A DNA stretch of 64,000 nt from Candidatus Zixiibacteriota bacterium (GTDB lineage: Bacteria; Zixibacteria; MSB-5A5; GN15; FEB-12). Below the pieces are notes generated by a model that was given only the letters and a program-made list of their open reading frames with translations, had not been told where the DNA came from and did not search any database. The translations under genes were made by a program, and so were the position numbers. Shown one piece after another: positions 3,753 to 9,503 of the stretch (position 1 is the stretch's first letter; each line of letters starts with the position of its first letter). The stretch lies in contig JAVEYB010000002.1 of assembly GCA_034003725.1 (NCBI GenBank), positions 391,392-455,391 on the forward strand. Reading direction: 5' to 3'.

Positions 3753-4475
3753 ATGAAACCCCTGTTCTATCTGCTGGTGAGTCTGGTCGCCGCAGTCTCC
3801 GCCGTAATGGCTGAGCCTGCACTGGAAGTGAGTTTCGAGGAGTACGATTTCGGAACGGTTATCGGCCGGGCGACCGTGTACCACGATTTCTGGTTCAAAT
3901 CGGTAGGAACCGATACGGTGCGAATTGACGACATCAAGATGGGATGTGATTGCGCCATGCTGCCCCTGTCCACAAGCAAGCTGGCCCCGGGGGACAGCAT
4001 GGCGATGCGGTTCACGTGGACAACCGAACGGGCGCAGGGGCTCGACCGGCGCTTTCCACGGATTTTCACCAACGTCTCCCCCGATCCCTACCGTCTGCGT
4101 TATTATGCGATGTGCGTGACCGAGCCCGACTCGGCGACCCCTGTATCGATTAAGCCGTATCGATTCGAATTCGCACAAATCGCCGGAGTGAAGCGAGACT
4201 CCCTCACTTTCACCATAACGAACAAAAGCGACCTCGGGTATGCTATCCACCTGGTGAGCCCGGCGACCGAACACCTCGAAGTGACCTTCCCCGATACGCT
4301 CGCACCGAATGCGTCGGTGACGGGCCATGTTCGGGTTTCGCCGGCGTCGGTCGATCAGAATTTCGAGGAGACGCTCACGTTCCAGTTCGACAGCAGGGGC
4401 GTTGATCCCGCGCGCTTTTCGATCCCGGTCCGTCAGCGCCTGCTGGGCTCTGCGGGAGCATCAAGTTCACGGTAG
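3753..4475 (+). CDS. Exported DUF1573-type protein, Cys form (CxC)
   Basis: 240-residue protein with a signal peptide (hydrophobic residues 4-20, cleavage likely after AVMA). The N-terminal half follows the DUF1573 / Ig-like pattern: YDFGTV, then HDFWFKSVG, then the family Cys motif written here as GCDCAML (Cys65 and Cys67), then LAPGDSMAMRFTW. The C-terminal half is a second beta-sandwich-like module shared with the next gene and with the protein at the right end of the window. The family is common in FCB bacteria but has no established biochemical role. The 66-base gap to the next gene, a paralogue, suggests one transcript. The start is chosen for the signal peptide; the ribosome site is weak (AGAAAAG). 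Confidence 0.8.
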   Translation: MKPLFYLLVSLVAAVSAVMAEPALEVSFEEYDFGTVIGRATVYHDFWFKSVGTDTVRIDDIKMGCDCAMLPLSTSKLAPGDSMAMRFTWTTERAQGLDRRFPRIFTNVSPDPYRLRYYAMCVTEPDSATPVSIKPYRFEFAQIAGVKRDSLTFTITNKSDLGYAIHLVSPATEHLEVTFPDTLAPNASVTGHVRVSPASVDQNFEETLTFQFDSRGVDPARFSIPVRQRLLGSAGASSSR

Positions 4476-4541
4476 CAACGAAGTGACGATATAAAACAGG
4501 TAAACGAAACAGCACCCAATACAAGGGAGACTGCGAGCCCT

Positions 4542-5294
4542 ATGCGGATACTTCTCGCGATCACAGGAGCGTTACTGCTGCTTTTTGCAGCCGGGTCGCT
4601 GACGGCAGCGCCTCGTCTCGAGATACCCGAAAACACGTTCAATTTCGGGTATGTGCCGCAGAACGCCACGATCAGCCACGACTTCTGGTTGTATTCGACC
4701 GGCGATGATACGCTGCGGATTCTCAGAATAGTCCCCGGCTGAGGGTGCACCAAGGCGCCACTTGAAAGAGAGGCACTTGCTGTCGGTGACAGCACTCGGT
4801 TAGAGATTATTTTCGACACGAAGCGGTATCGCAGCCGGATGGAAAAGGCCCCTCGCATTCAGACGAATGAAGGGCCGCCGGACAAGACCGTGCGGATTAT
4901 TTCCACGATCATCGACCGTCCGGATTCCACCTACCCGGTCATCGTGAAGCCGTATAAGCTCGATCTGTCGCAGTTCGGTGAGACCGTGCGGGACGAAGTG
5001 AAGTTTACGATCAGCAATGTCTCGGAAGAAGATCTGCAGGTTTCGCTGATCGCTGCGAAGAAGGACTATTTCACGGTCAACCTGCCCAAGGTCGTCAAGG
5101 CCGGGCAGACGGCCGAAGGAACGCTCCGGCTGACGGAGCAGGGAGCGAAGATCTCGTTCGAGAAGTCGTTGACGTTCCAGGTCTCGGATATGGCCGGTTC
5201 GCGCTTTACGGTCCCGGTGAAACGCACCATGCGGACCCCCGGTCTGCAGGCCACGCCGGCAAAAGGCTACGGAGATCAGGGGCAGGGACACTGA
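4542..5294 (+). CDS. Candidate selenoprotein: exported DUF1573-type protein with in-frame UGA at codon 67
   Basis: The reading frame runs from ATG 4542 to TGA 5292-5294, 250 residues if the internal TGA at 4740-4742 is decoded. Seen: signal peptide (residues 1-22), then FNFGYV, SHDFWLYSTG, and PG-UGA-GCTK, where DUF1573 proteins normally carry CGCT. Beyond the UGA the same frame continues with AVGDSTRLEIIFDTKRY and a complete second domain whose sequence matches the neighbouring paralogue and the protein at the right edge. In that neighbour the aligned position is Cys65 of a Cys-Asp-Cys motif, so this protein would have Sec-Gly-Cys. The simplest reading is selenocysteine insertion. Alternatives are a Cys-to-stop mutation (TGC or TGT to TGA), a sequencing error, or two separate products. 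AAGGGAGA lies upstream of the start. Confidence 0.72.
4740..4742 (+). other. In-frame UGA, proposed selenocysteine codon
   Basis: UGA codon 67 of the DUF1573-type gene, followed directly by GGG TGC ACC (Gly-Cys-Thr). It takes the place of the first Cys of the family CGCT motif. Both flanks are coding in the same frame. Confidence 0.68.
4744..4777 (+). other. Possible bacterial SECIS-like hairpin
   Basis: Just 3' of the UGA, CAAG (4751-4754) can pair with CTTG (4761-4764) around the loop GCGCCA. An outer helix can form between GGTGC (4744-4748) and GCACT (4773-4777). A G opens the apical loop, which starts 12 bases after the UGA, compatible in outline with bacterial SECIS elements. The pairing is short and was found by eye only. 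Confidence 0.3.
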
Positions 5295-5361: not shown

Positions 5362-6801
5362 TCAGATGTCGTGGTTGATCTCGATAAACGCGCCTTCTTT
5401 CAGGCGGCTGTCCCAGATCTGGTTGAAGATCTCACCGTCGGCGTTGGAATGGACGAGCTCGAAATCACTGTAACCGTGCTGGTCTTCGAACACAAACGCG
5501 AGCCCTTCCCGGATATTGCGGTAGAACCAGACCAGGTAGGGGTAGCCGACCACCGGCGCAAAGCGGGAGACAGTCTCGCTGGGCTCGCCGTAGCGGATGT
5601 AGATACGGCCGCGGTCGGACAACCATCCGTTGTCACGCATCTCATTGGTGGAGAACCGATCATTGGCGTAGTGGAAGCGCCGGATCAACTCCAGTCGAGC
5701 CTCGTTTGCGGTCGTGGCCGGTGTTTCGTCGCGGTCGCGCCAATACTGGCGAAGATAGTTCTCTTTGCCGCTGTCGCTGAGAGACTCGAGCGTCAGGCGC
5801 TGGTCCGGCGTCAGCTCGTATTTCACTAGGTTGAGCTTTTGCGACAGGGAGAGGCTGTCGTACGGATCGGGTGACGACGCTCTCGACGCGATTATTGTGG
5901 CAACTTCGGAGGTCGACATGATTCGGAACGGCAGCGTGAGTGTATCGGCTCGCTGTGAGGCCGGATCGGTCGCGGCCAGCTCAAGTGAATAGAACCCTGT
6001 CCGCCAGCCAGTGATATCGAATGATTGGGCCACGACCGCGGTCGGCCCGGGCTTTGATCGGGAAATAGTGCCCAGTTCGCGGACGGCGACGCCGGAGCTG
6101 TCCAGTACGCGAAATTGCACCCGATAGCGGTCCTGCGGCGCGTCGGCCATCGTCAGGTTGTATAACTCCGCGTAAACAAACAGGGCGGTATCTCGCGCAT
6201 CGACCAACCCGACCGGGTTGGTCAACACTTCAAGGCCGTTTTTCAACATCCGTCGATTGACGCCGGGCAGGGTCGTATCGGCGGGCCGAATGCGGTACGC
6301 CAGCCTGCCGCCTCCGAGCGCCAGTGCGGCGGGGGCCGGTTCCACAACCACGCGATCGTAAAAGACGGAATTCGACCGTTTACTGACGGCATCTATCACC
6401 GTGAGGCGGGCCGTATAGACACCCGGTTTAACCGGGAGGCTTAGTTCGTTCATCAGCTTGATGTCGCCGTTCACGGTATCGTCGGGATTGGCAACCCTGA
6501 CAGAGAAGTATGTGTTGGTGGAATCGATGTCGAATCCGTCGAGGTTGATCAGGTTCACCTGCGCGAATATCCGCGCATACCAGTCGGGGGATGTGCTGTC
6601 CGGTCGGTAAAACTGAAACTCGCTCCGATTCAAGGTGAAGGGAAACTCGACAAGAGCCACGGTGTCGAAGGCGGGATTGTTACTCACGGCCAGCCCGGCC
6701 TGGATAGACAACTCCCCCCGCCCCGCCGCGGACGAAACGGCCCCGCAGTAAAGCACTCCAAGAGCCATTATCAGATTCCACGTGCTGTAACGACTGCGCA
6801 T
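5362..6801 (-). CDS. Exported GWxTD-domain protein (second of pair)
   Basis: 479-residue exported protein. The start at 6801 (MRSRYSTW...) is chosen because TGAGGTG precedes it and a signal peptide follows; the open frame extends further upstream but into the previous gene. Beta-rich N-terminal region, then a C-terminal GWxTD domain: ANDRFSTNEMRDNGWLSDRGRIYIRYGEP, ending near the C-terminus with YLVWFYR and FVFEDQHGYSDFELVHS. The family motif appears as GWLSD. GWxTD proteins occur in FCB and acidobacterial genomes, and their function is not established. Its start lies 7 bases after the stop of a related lipoprotein gene, so the two are almost certainly co-expressed. Confidence 0.85.
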   Translation of the reverse strand: MRSRYSTWNLIMALGVLYCGAVSSAAGRGELSIQAGLAVSNNPAFDTVALVEFPFTLNRSEFQFYRPDSTSPDWYARIFAQVNLINLDGFDIDSTNTYFSVRVANPDDTVNGDIKLMNELSLPVKPGVYTARLTVIDAVSKRSNSVFYDRVVVEPAPAALALGGGRLAYRIRPADTTLPGVNRRMLKNGLEVLTNPVGLVDARDTALFVYAELYNLTMADAPQDRYRVQFRVLDSSGVAVRELGTISRSKPGPTAVVAQSFDITGWRTGFYSLELAATDPASQRADTLTLPFRIMSTSEVATIIASRASSPDPYDSLSLSQKLNLVKYELTPDQRLTLESLSDSGKENYLRQYWRDRDETPATTANEARLELIRRFHYANDRFSTNEMRDNGWLSDRGRIYIRYGEPSETVSRFAPVVGYPYLVWFYRNIREGLAFVFEDQHGYSDFELVHSNADGEIFNQIWDSRLKEGAFIEINHDI

Positions 6802-6808
6802 ACGCACC

Positions 6809-8155
6809 TCAGAACTCCGGGCGGAAGCCCAGACCATCATACGGAAAGACCAGACGGTAATCTCCGTCGAAGTTTTCATCGATAAACGTGAAACGCCGGT
6901 AGAGCGCTTCTACGCGATAATAGTGCCAGATCTGGTACGGCGGGTAATTGGGCGACATCGGCACGTCGTCGATCTGGTCCGGTTCGCCGCGCTGAATATA
7001 GATCCGGCCGCGGTCTGTCCGCCATCCCTCCCGACGCATCGCCTCGAAATGTCGGTTGGCATAGGCGACCCGGCGATTGAACTCGCGCTGCCACTCATTC
7101 TCCAGCGTGCCCGGCGTGGGGTCGTTTTTGGCCCAGAATTCGTCATATGCCTTTTGCCGCTCGTCGGGAGTCGTTGCCGATTTTATGGCGTCAAGCTCGC
7201 CGCCGGAGGTGATCAGTTCAAGCTGCTGAATGGCCGTCTTGGCGTCGTGTTGTATCAGGGTCCCTTCATCCCAGTGGACGTAGAACTCGGCCCGCGTGTC
7301 ATCGAGGTACTTGTCCCTCCGCCCGAGGAGTTTTATCTCCAGCGCATAGGGACCGGGCTTGAACTGGGCAAGAGAGATTTCGCGCAACTGCCGCTTCACC
7401 GGCGCATCGAGTTCTGCGGTCAAGGTGTCGCGGTACACCATGTCGTCCAGCCGATCGTGACGGATTCTCGTCTCCACGACGACTTTGTCCCACTCGTCGG
7501 TCCCCTTGTAGATCTCCAGGTAATAGAGCAGCTTGTCATCGGTGTCACTGCCGTAATCACGGGAGACGGACGGCACGACGCGAAGGTTGGTACCGCGATC
7601 GAACAGATTCTCATCATCATTCTGCGCCGTTACCGAGTGCGCGAACAGCACGTTGGAAAGTCGGGGCGCCGCATAGTCGTATTGACGGAGTTTCACCTCG
7701 AACTGCGCCCGGCTCTCGCCGTCGCCGTTTGGATCCGAGAGGTAGCAACTCACCCGGTAGGTGCCCGGAAGAAGATCGAAACTGGTGAGGCTGGTCCGGA
7801 AGTCAATCAACGAACGCGTTTTCTGTTCATTCGGAACGGAAATAGTCCGCTCCCGCTGCCACCGGCCGACCTGCACCCGGTTTTCGTTCTCTACGGTGAT
7901 CAGCAGGCGGTAGTCCGCAACGTACCGTCCTTCCGTTTCTTTGTAGCTGAACCCGAAATTGTAGATTTTATAATAGACTTCGAGACGGATGCTGTCGCTT
8001 GACGGGGATCGGAAGGTGGAGTGGTCAACCTCCATCACCAGATTGCCCTTTTTCTGGCTCACCTGCGGCGCGATTGATTCCTGCGCCGGCATCTTGCAGC
8101 CGCCGGACAATCCCGCCGCGAACAGCGCAAGTACTGTAATGACAACGTGTTTCAT
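6809..8155 (-). CDS. GWxTD-domain lipoprotein (first of pair)
   Basis: 448-residue protein starting at ATG 8155 (MKHVVITVLAL). The N-terminus is a lipoprotein signal: hydrophobic segment, then LSGGC with Cys20 as the likely lipidated residue. The middle is beta-rich. The C-terminal domain carries the GWxTD signature as EGWRTDRGRIYIQRGEP, then YQIWHYYR and FTFIDENFDGDYRLV. It is probably anchored in the envelope and works with the GWxTD protein encoded directly downstream, with which it shares overall layout but only moderate sequence similarity. A promoter-like sequence lies about 40 bases upstream. The longer open frame (to 8347) is not used because it crosses that promoter and lacks a signal peptide. 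Confidence 0.85.
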   Translation of the reverse strand: MKHVVITVLALFAAGLSGGCKMPAQESIAPQVSQKKGNLVMEVDHSTFRSPSSDSIRLEVYYKIYNFGFSYKETEGRYVADYRLLITVENENRVQVGRWQRERTISVPNEQKTRSLIDFRTSLTSFDLLPGTYRVSCYLSDPNGDGESRAQFEVKLRQYDYAAPRLSNVLFAHSVTAQNDDENLFDRGTNLRVVPSVSRDYGSDTDDKLLYYLEIYKGTDEWDKVVVETRIRHDRLDDMVYRDTLTAELDAPVKRQLREISLAQFKPGPYALEIKLLGRRDKYLDDTRAEFYVHWDEGTLIQHDAKTAIQQLELITSGGELDAIKSATTPDERQKAYDEFWAKNDPTPGTLENEWQREFNRRVAYANRHFEAMRREGWRTDRGRIYIQRGEPDQIDDVPMSPNYPPYQIWHYYRVEALYRRFTFIDENFDGDYRLVFPYDGLGFRPEF

Positions 8156-8194
8156 CGCATTCTTTGTAACGGCCCGACCGCAGAGCCGGTTCCA

Positions 8195-8222
8195 ATAATA
8201 GACGACGTATAGCCGGGGACAA
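8195..8222 (-). promoter_or_regulatory. Predicted promoter for the GWxTD pair
   Basis: On the minus strand TTGTCC (8217-8222) and TATTAT (8195-8200) have a 16-base spacer. It sits between the end of the efflux operon and the lipoprotein start. Confidence 0.5.
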
Positions 8223-8252
8223 TATAAAAGAAAATGGCGGTTCGTGAGGGCG

Positions 8253-9503
8253 TTATTCGTAGCGAAGCGCCTCGATTGGATCGAGCCAGGCCGCCTTGAC
8301 GGCCGGGTATACGCCGGATGCCAGTCCGACCGAAACCGCCACGACAAATCCTACCACGATCCAGAAAACCGATACGGCGAGTGGAAAGCCGAAGAGTGCG
8401 TTGATCAATACACCCAGCAGGACCCCAAGCACGATTCCCACCAGTCCCCCCGCGCCGGAGAGCGTCATCGCCTCCGTGAGAAACTGCAGGATAATGTTCG
8501 ATCGTTTGGCGCCAATTGCCTTGCGAACGCCAATCTCGCGGGTGCGCTCCGTGACCGAAACGAGCATGATATTCATCACCCCGATACCGCCGACCATCAA
8601 CCCGACAGAGGTGATGATCAAACCGGCAAGATAGATGTACTTCGTGATGTTTTCGATCTGCTCTTTAAACTGCTCTTGTGTCGACAGATGGAAGTTATTC
8701 TCTTCGCCGAACGGCACCTTTCGGTACTGCCGAAGGACCGAGGTGATTTCCTCCATCGCCTGGTCGATCAATTCATACGTCGATGCGCGAACGTCGAGAC
8801 CGAGTTCCTCTTCCCACGGGTGCAGTTTGGCAAACGTCGACAAGGGGATAATGATAACCTGGTTCTCGAAGCCGCCGCCGAAATTCGATTCCTGCCGTTC
8901 GAGGACGCCGATGACTTCGAACCGGTTGCCGTTAACGCGGATTTCGTTACCGACTGCCGGTGAATCCTCAAACAGCGTGCGGGCGACATCGTGTCCCAGC
9001 ACTGCGACCATCAGGCGAAACTGCTCGTCCACATCGCTGAGAAACCGGCCATGGGCCACGTTTCGGTCGCGCACCTGTACGTAATCCGGCCACGTGCCCA
9101 TGAGATTGGGATTCTGCGCCTGCTTGTTGCCGAATTTGGCGATATTGCCGCCGGGTTTGAAGTAGTAATTCTGCGGCGCCACACCGTCGACCGACGGACA
9201 GCTCTCCATGATGATCCGGGCTTCGCCGACCGTCATGGGCTTGCGATTGCGTTCTTCATCGGTGAGATCTTCGAAGTCCGTATCCGGCGCCCATTTCGAG
9301 ACGCGTATGATATTCGAGCCGCGTCGGTCAACCTCTGCTTTTGCGGCTCCGTCGAGTCCATTAATGACCGACGCCATCCCGATAACAGCGGCCACGCCCA
9401 CCATCACACCGACAATGGTCATGATCGATCGGAAGAGATTTGAGCGAAGCGAATCAAGCGCCATCAGTATCGCGTCGCGGATTTCAACCCAGGTAATCAG
9501 CAT
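8253..9503 (-). CDS. MacB-type ABC permease (FtsX/MacB_PCD), second copy
   Basis: 416-residue permease from ATG 9503, five bases after the stop of the preceding permease gene. One transmembrane helix near residues 25-47 (FRSIMTIVGVMVGVAAVIGM) is followed by a large periplasmic MacB_PCD domain and three C-terminal helices that include the FtsX signature region (SVTERTREIGVRKAIGA). It ends in the LDPIEALRYE motif typical of MacB/LolC permeases. It has no ATPase domain of its own, so it probably pairs with the adjacent permease and the ATPase upstream. MacB-like systems work by mechanotransmission, driving export through a TolC channel. Confidence 0.9.
   Translation of the reverse strand: MLITWVEIRDAILMALDSLRSNLFRSIMTIVGVMVGVAAVIGMASVINGLDGAAKAEVDRRGSNIIRVSKWAPDTDFEDLTDEERNRKPMTVGEARIIMESCPSVDGVAPQNYYFKPGGNIAKFGNKQAQNPNLMGTWPDYVQVRDRNVAHGRFLSDVDEQFRLMVAVLGHDVARTLFEDSPAVGNEIRVNGNRFEVIGVLERQESNFGGGFENQVIIIPLSTFAKLHPWEEELGLDVRASTYELIDQAMEEITSVLRQYRKVPFGEENNFHLSTQEQFKEQIENITKYIYLAGLIITSVGLMVGGIGVMNIMLVSVTERTREIGVRKAIGAKRSNIILQFLTEAMTLSGAGGLVGIVLGVLLGVLINALFGFPLAVSVFWIVVGFVVAVSVGLASGVYPAVKAAWLDPIEALRYE

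Follow-up and report, generated by a model that had tools for sequence, protein, structure and literature searches.

The window, the whole stretch of 64,000 nucleotides from a Candidatus Zixiibacteriota bacterium analysed here, carries two adjoining DUF1573 genes on its plus strand. The downstream gene (4542-5294) starts with the ATG at 4542, has a possible ribosome-binding site (AAGGGAG, 4523-4529, plus strand, read by eye from the sequence) 12 nt 5' of this ATG, contains an internal TGA as codon 67 (4740-4742) and is then open until a second TGA at 5292-5294. With the internal UGA read as selenocysteine (Sec), the product would have 250 residues, Sec at position 67, a signal-peptide-like N-terminus and two Ig-like domains. 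The match to PF07610 (DUF1573; residues 27-120, 3e-20, 72.5 bits with a cut-off of 26.1) runs across the UGA without a break. GGG-TGC-ACC follows directly 3' of the UGA, which therefore occupies position 1 of the CGCT motif of the family, here U-G-C-T, and U67-G68-C69 falls within the PF07610 match. The upstream paralogue (3753-4475, plus strand) has a C-D-C motif, Cys65-Asp66-Cys67, at the equivalent position. A sequence-only reading of the locus had described the frame as open across the TGA with a signal peptide and the first half of the protein before it, had taken the UGA to stand for the first Cys of CGCT and had set the U-x-C of this protein beside the C-x-C of its neighbour; all of this is confirmed. 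A crude, non-rigorous scan of the window for other in-frame UGA codons gave no convincing frame; the UGA at 4740 itself was absent from its list, since this gene has a TGA as its terminal stop as well.

Just upstream, most of the 21 neighbourhoods compared have a second DUF1573 gene in the same orientation. Converging on this DUF1573 block is a conserved series of two paralogous genes followed by ABC-type permeases, the latter named from a reading of their sequences. In the window, the two paralogous genes that face the DUF1573 pair lie at 5362-8347 on the minus strand, and they are kept in all 21 neighbourhoods. This pair may encode GWxTD-domain proteins.

The UGA is conserved far beyond this genome. 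The strict 23-base pattern GGNTGAGGNTGYRCNMARGCNCC (PG-UGA-GC-x-x-AP) was scanned across 132 genomes of the phylum and was found in 97 of them, but not once when the reversed pattern was used as control; the pattern is therefore not a matter of chance. Homologues with UGA at this exact codon range in protein identity from 81% down to about 30%. In a survey of the window's genome and 97 relatives, 98 in all, the best match contained exactly one internal TGA in most genomes of the same family and order. Alignment of the fetched loci gave 77 distinct genes of the order with TGA at this very codon, and the remaining homologues and paralogues have TGC (54), TGT (34) or TCC (1), so that an in-frame UGA, itself conserved, is aligned with the Cys of homologues. 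Deeper families also keep the UGA, and their frames stay open downstream for 170-219 codons; the decay after the UGA that the sequence-only reading had named as fatal to its proposal did not occur. In a tree of 122 homologues, 13 changes between U and C are required and at least nine are forced by well supported branches, for which the tree by itself gives no direction. Within the tree, several tandem duplicates with Cys, L079 and L089 among them, branch inside groups of Sec genes. Two contigs (loci L146 of genome G084 and L147 of G107) each have three tandem UGA-containing DUF1573 genes, and GGNTGAGGNTGYRCNMARGCNCC matches three times in each.

The host genome (3.73 Mb, 99.5% complete) is equipped to decode Sec. 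selA (512 bits) and selB (301 bits) are adjacent on contig C12, which also carries the tRNA-Sec gene selC (69 bits; found by ARAGORN with anticodon tca), and selD is present as well (373.5 bits). All four matches are above their cut-offs, and the full set of genes that the initial proposal depended on is thus present. A selA match was obtained in 96 of 98 relatives, in 89 of them above the cut-off, and since the gene is so nearly universal its presence or absence provides no independent test of Sec reading. selD lies outside the window (G000:C13:102559-103482, L021) and has an in-frame TGA of its own near the start, in the context AEVACAG-U-ASK; the genome therefore encodes at least one further likely selenoprotein. 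In one relative, the selA match (G043:C64:9741-11075) contains one TGA within its frame.

Downstream of the UGA lies a SECIS-like hairpin, SL2 (4778-4794, plus strand), of 7 bp (UGCUGUC-GGU-GACAGCA) with a folding energy of -9.1 kcal/mol (19-nt hairpin). Its apical GGU triloop (4785-4787, plus strand) is found 42 nt after the UGA, a distance that is kept in 76 of the 77 genes of the order, and is GGN phylum-wide: the third loop base is free, with GGU, GGC, GGA and GGG all present. Codons +13 to +17 after the UGA read GCU-GUC-GGY-GAC-AGY. Not one synonymous change is seen in the Ala and Val codons of the 77 Sec genes, whereas most neighbouring codons vary freely, and CGCT-type Cys homologues mostly have Pro instead of Val here, with mixed codons. 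Of 102 UGA genes, drawn from 11 families, 96 keep GCUGUC-GG-N-GACAG. The bottom pair shows covariation, being either U-A or C-G, a C-A mismatch within the stem is seen in a few UGA genes, and SL2 is the hairpin picked by RNAalifold. Two divergent DUF1573 copies with in-frame UGA, L105 (G072) and L141 (G100), are without the SL2 sequence. Among 88 Cys homologues, the hairpin persists in just two, L047 and a tandem copy of L079, both of which look like recent replacements of Sec by Cys. L047 (G031:C3:397723-401415, minus strand) is an orthologue whose codon at this site is TGC, not TGA, and whose SL2 is intact, in a genome that still has selA.

Between the UGA and SL2 lies a second putative hairpin, SL1 (4754-4777, plus strand; offsets 14-37 from the U of the UGA), of whose nine consensus pairs seven form in the window. 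Its stability was compared with a null in which synonymous codons were permuted within columns, with the protein sequences and the codon usage of each column kept. The mean energy in 102 Sec genes was -9.7 kcal/mol, as opposed to -6.3 ± 0.2 kcal/mol in the shuffles; with one gene per genus (n = 60) the values were -9.6 and -6.8 ± 0.26 kcal/mol, and none of 200 shuffles was as low. Cys homologues have a mean of -2.9 kcal/mol over the same stretch. For SL1 and SL2 jointly (49 sequences) the covariation score was 0.177 compared to 0.111 ± 0.007, with none of 500 shuffles as high, and slid registers gave only 0.06-0.10. Members of family f9 have either CCU...AGG or CCG...CGG, a difference that is synonymous on both sides, with the register shifted by one; this alternation of the SL1 stem is seen in L145, L146 and L147. 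RNAalifold did not choose SL1, and folding of the window region as a single sequence preferred other pairings and was itself not significant (z -1.2). The support for SL1 thus comes from the synonymous shuffles and the pair counts. Since relatedness among the sequences can inflate shuffle tests, and since RNAalifold omits it, SL1 is less certain than SL2; as judged from these sequence comparisons, its existence as a real hairpin is nevertheless well supported.

How does this element compare to known ones? The bacterial SECIS (bSECIS) model asks for a loop of 3-9 nt with a G in the first two positions, a stem of 4-16 bp, an energy of -7.5 kcal/mol or lower and a spacing of 16-37 nt from UGA to apical loop (PMC13188914). 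SL2 agrees with the model in its GGU triloop, its 7 bp, its -9.1 kcal/mol and its place within the reading frame 3' of the UGA, but its spacing of 42 nt is too long. A further difference is the covarying SL1, found between the UGA and SL2. The selD hairpin of the host is unlike SL2 in this respect: its GUU triloop follows the UGA after about 20 nt, which is the usual short spacing. Some bacterial SECIS elements are known to break the model (PMC13188914, PMC12013277), and an atypical element is therefore not unprecedented. Rfam covariance models gave no match in window positions 4680-4880 up to E = 5. A covariance model of the element itself, run against the whole own genome, gave one high match (74.9 bits), in the Sec-DUF1573 gene, followed by a runner-up of 26 bits within a Cys DUF1573 paralogue. 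A second copy was not found in this genome, and the weaker matches inspected were ordinary coding or chance sequence. It is tempting to speculate that tandem SL1 and SL2 make up a distinct class of bacterial SECIS, kept phylum-wide with one envelope selenoprotein, and that the same SelB also reads the canonical short-spaced element of selD; we would give this idea an even chance.

Two selenoprotein reviews, of 2022 and 2026, include DUF1573 proteins that have a UGC motif (PMC9312934, PMC13188914). The former credits Zhang and Gladyshev 2007, a study of an Olavius symbiont, and OS_HP2 (pfam07610, UxC) was catalogued in the GOS study of 2008 (PMC2398784). NCBIfam already has a family, NF041425 OS_HP2_seleno. 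Because such proteins have been catalogued since 2007-2008, a claim to a new Sec-DUF1573 family does not hold. The sequence-only reading had proposed a candidate new selenoprotein: the selenoprotein is strongly supported by the sel machinery, the phylum-wide UGA and the SECIS-like hairpin absent from nearly all Cys homologues, but the novelty of the family is not. The role that it proposed, a thiol/selenol redox protein of the envelope, is plausible. The protein shares with OS_HP2 the DUF1573 domain (pfam07610) and Sec in a UGC/UxC motif, and U67-G68-C69 gives it the U-x-C inside the domain by which OS_HP2 is recognised. It differs in scoring 64.4 bits (residues 28-111) against NF041425, below the curated cut-off of 100 bits, in being a two-domain protein and in being encoded beside a CxC paralogue. 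The two-hairpin signal of this clade, with its 42 nt, is distinctive in comparison with the bSECIS model and with Rfam. In the open-access literature we found no description of the sub-cut-off branch, of its phylum-wide retention or of the long-spaced two-hairpin signal. One paper there mentions Zixibacteria as well as selenoproteins, and its two passages on Zixibacteria deal with other subjects. A tblastn search of plasmid sequences gave no match.

AlphaFold2 (31 sequences) predicts a two-domain beta protein with a pLDDT of 91.4, in which U67 would be placed in the loop following strand 58-64 of the first domain. The best Foldseek matches were chains of the ciliary central apparatus, the SPD-2 domain of CEP192 and a Porphyromonas gingivalis protein of unknown function (2qsv). 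The modelled domains are consistent with an ASH-type Ig fold, as in the ASH/SPD-2/Hydin Ig-like domains (PF22544). The eukaryotic proteins of this group serve as structural components of cilia and centrosomes, and the match does not suggest a role for Sec or CxC. A possible mode of action comes from the Ig-fold oxidoreductases of the periplasm, CsgC and nDsbD. CsgC has a CxC with a measured potential of -139 mV (PMC3173608); for the tripeptide CGC, that paper quotes -167 mV. The likeness lies in an Ig-like fold that carries two redox residues close together on a loop, and in the presumed envelope location of our protein; the comparison concerns the mode of action and implies no homology. The protein described here differs from CsgC and nDsbD in that its Ig-like domains number two and that Sec replaces one Cys.

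Altogether, the Sec machinery, the conserved UGA and the SECIS-like hairpin very strongly support the reading of UGA 4740-4742 as Sec. The UGA would be decoded by SelB with Sec-tRNA, directed by an in-frame RNA element of two hairpins. SelB probably binds SL2, which has the GGN triloop, and SL1 would occupy the unusually long gap between the UGA and SL2. The product would be exported as a double Ig-like protein with U-G-C in a loop of its first domain, and most likely it acts jointly with the C-x-C paralogue encoded beside it in selenol/thiol-disulfide exchange in the envelope. We consider it very likely that the gene encodes such a secreted double Ig-like selenoprotein, decoded by SelB via the two-hairpin element, and that selenol/thiol exchange, jointly with the CxC paralogue, is its most probable activity.

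Other explanations have to be weighed against this. If the UGA were a true stop, the product would end after 66 residues and the second half would be decayed or separately started; the gene does terminate with UGA elsewhere, and the second half could start from an internal ATG at 4839. The UGA might also be an assembly error. However, the UGA stands at one codon with conserved protein on either side in 97 of 132 genomes, the PF07610 match continues across it, the deeper families keep their 170-219 downstream codons open, and the RNA hairpin goes with UGA and not with Cys. The conservation of the UGA at one codon across the relatives and the phylum all but rules out error, pseudogene and plain stop, and we give them next to no credence. 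A UGA read as another amino acid, or a partial readthrough that acts as a switch between a short and a long product, is also very improbable. An RNA hairpin is in general able to promote readthrough and the sequence is compatible with a mixed output, but the copies without UGA have TGC (54), TGT (34) and a single TCC, Cys at this position being what Sec/Cys exchange predicts, and the genome carries the full Sec machinery.

The remaining alternatives accept Sec and differ in how it is inserted or in what it does. Insertion might depend on SL2 alone, with SL1 as a by-product of coding or codon constraint. This is a real possibility, if not the one we prefer: RNAalifold selects just SL2, the register of SL1 varies by lineage (50 in f9, 51 elsewhere) and 25% of the SL1 cells are unpaired. 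Against it, SL1 is about 2.8-3.4 kcal/mol more stable than shuffles that preserve protein and codon usage, changes on both sides of the stem number 42 where 21.8 are expected, and the Cys homologues reach only their -2.9 kcal/mol across the same stretch. As to function, the UxC site and the CxC paralogue might bind a metal or metalloid in the envelope without redox catalysis. CxC or UxC pairs are able to chelate soft metals when placed on a rigid loop, and the conserved neighbourhood contains no identified redox partner such as thioredoxin; but neither was a metal-handling gene recognised on a reading of the sequences of its genes alone. The catalogued selenoprotein families are mostly thought to be redox-acting, according to PMC9312934, and CsgC, the nearest architectural analogue, is redox-active. 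Metal binding is thus the main rival, in our view an unlikely one, and by analogy a selenol/thiol redox role in the envelope is favoured.

The Sec-DUF1573 gene would thus represent a selenoprotein conserved through an uncultured phylum, and annotation of the UGA as a stop would shorten its protein. The model with which bacterial selenoprotein genes are searched for does not allow a spacing as long as that of SL2, so that other genes of this kind may escape detection. The tandem copies in which Sec and Cys forms are nested, among them the UGC copy with an intact hairpin, provide natural material on the exchange of Sec and Cys.
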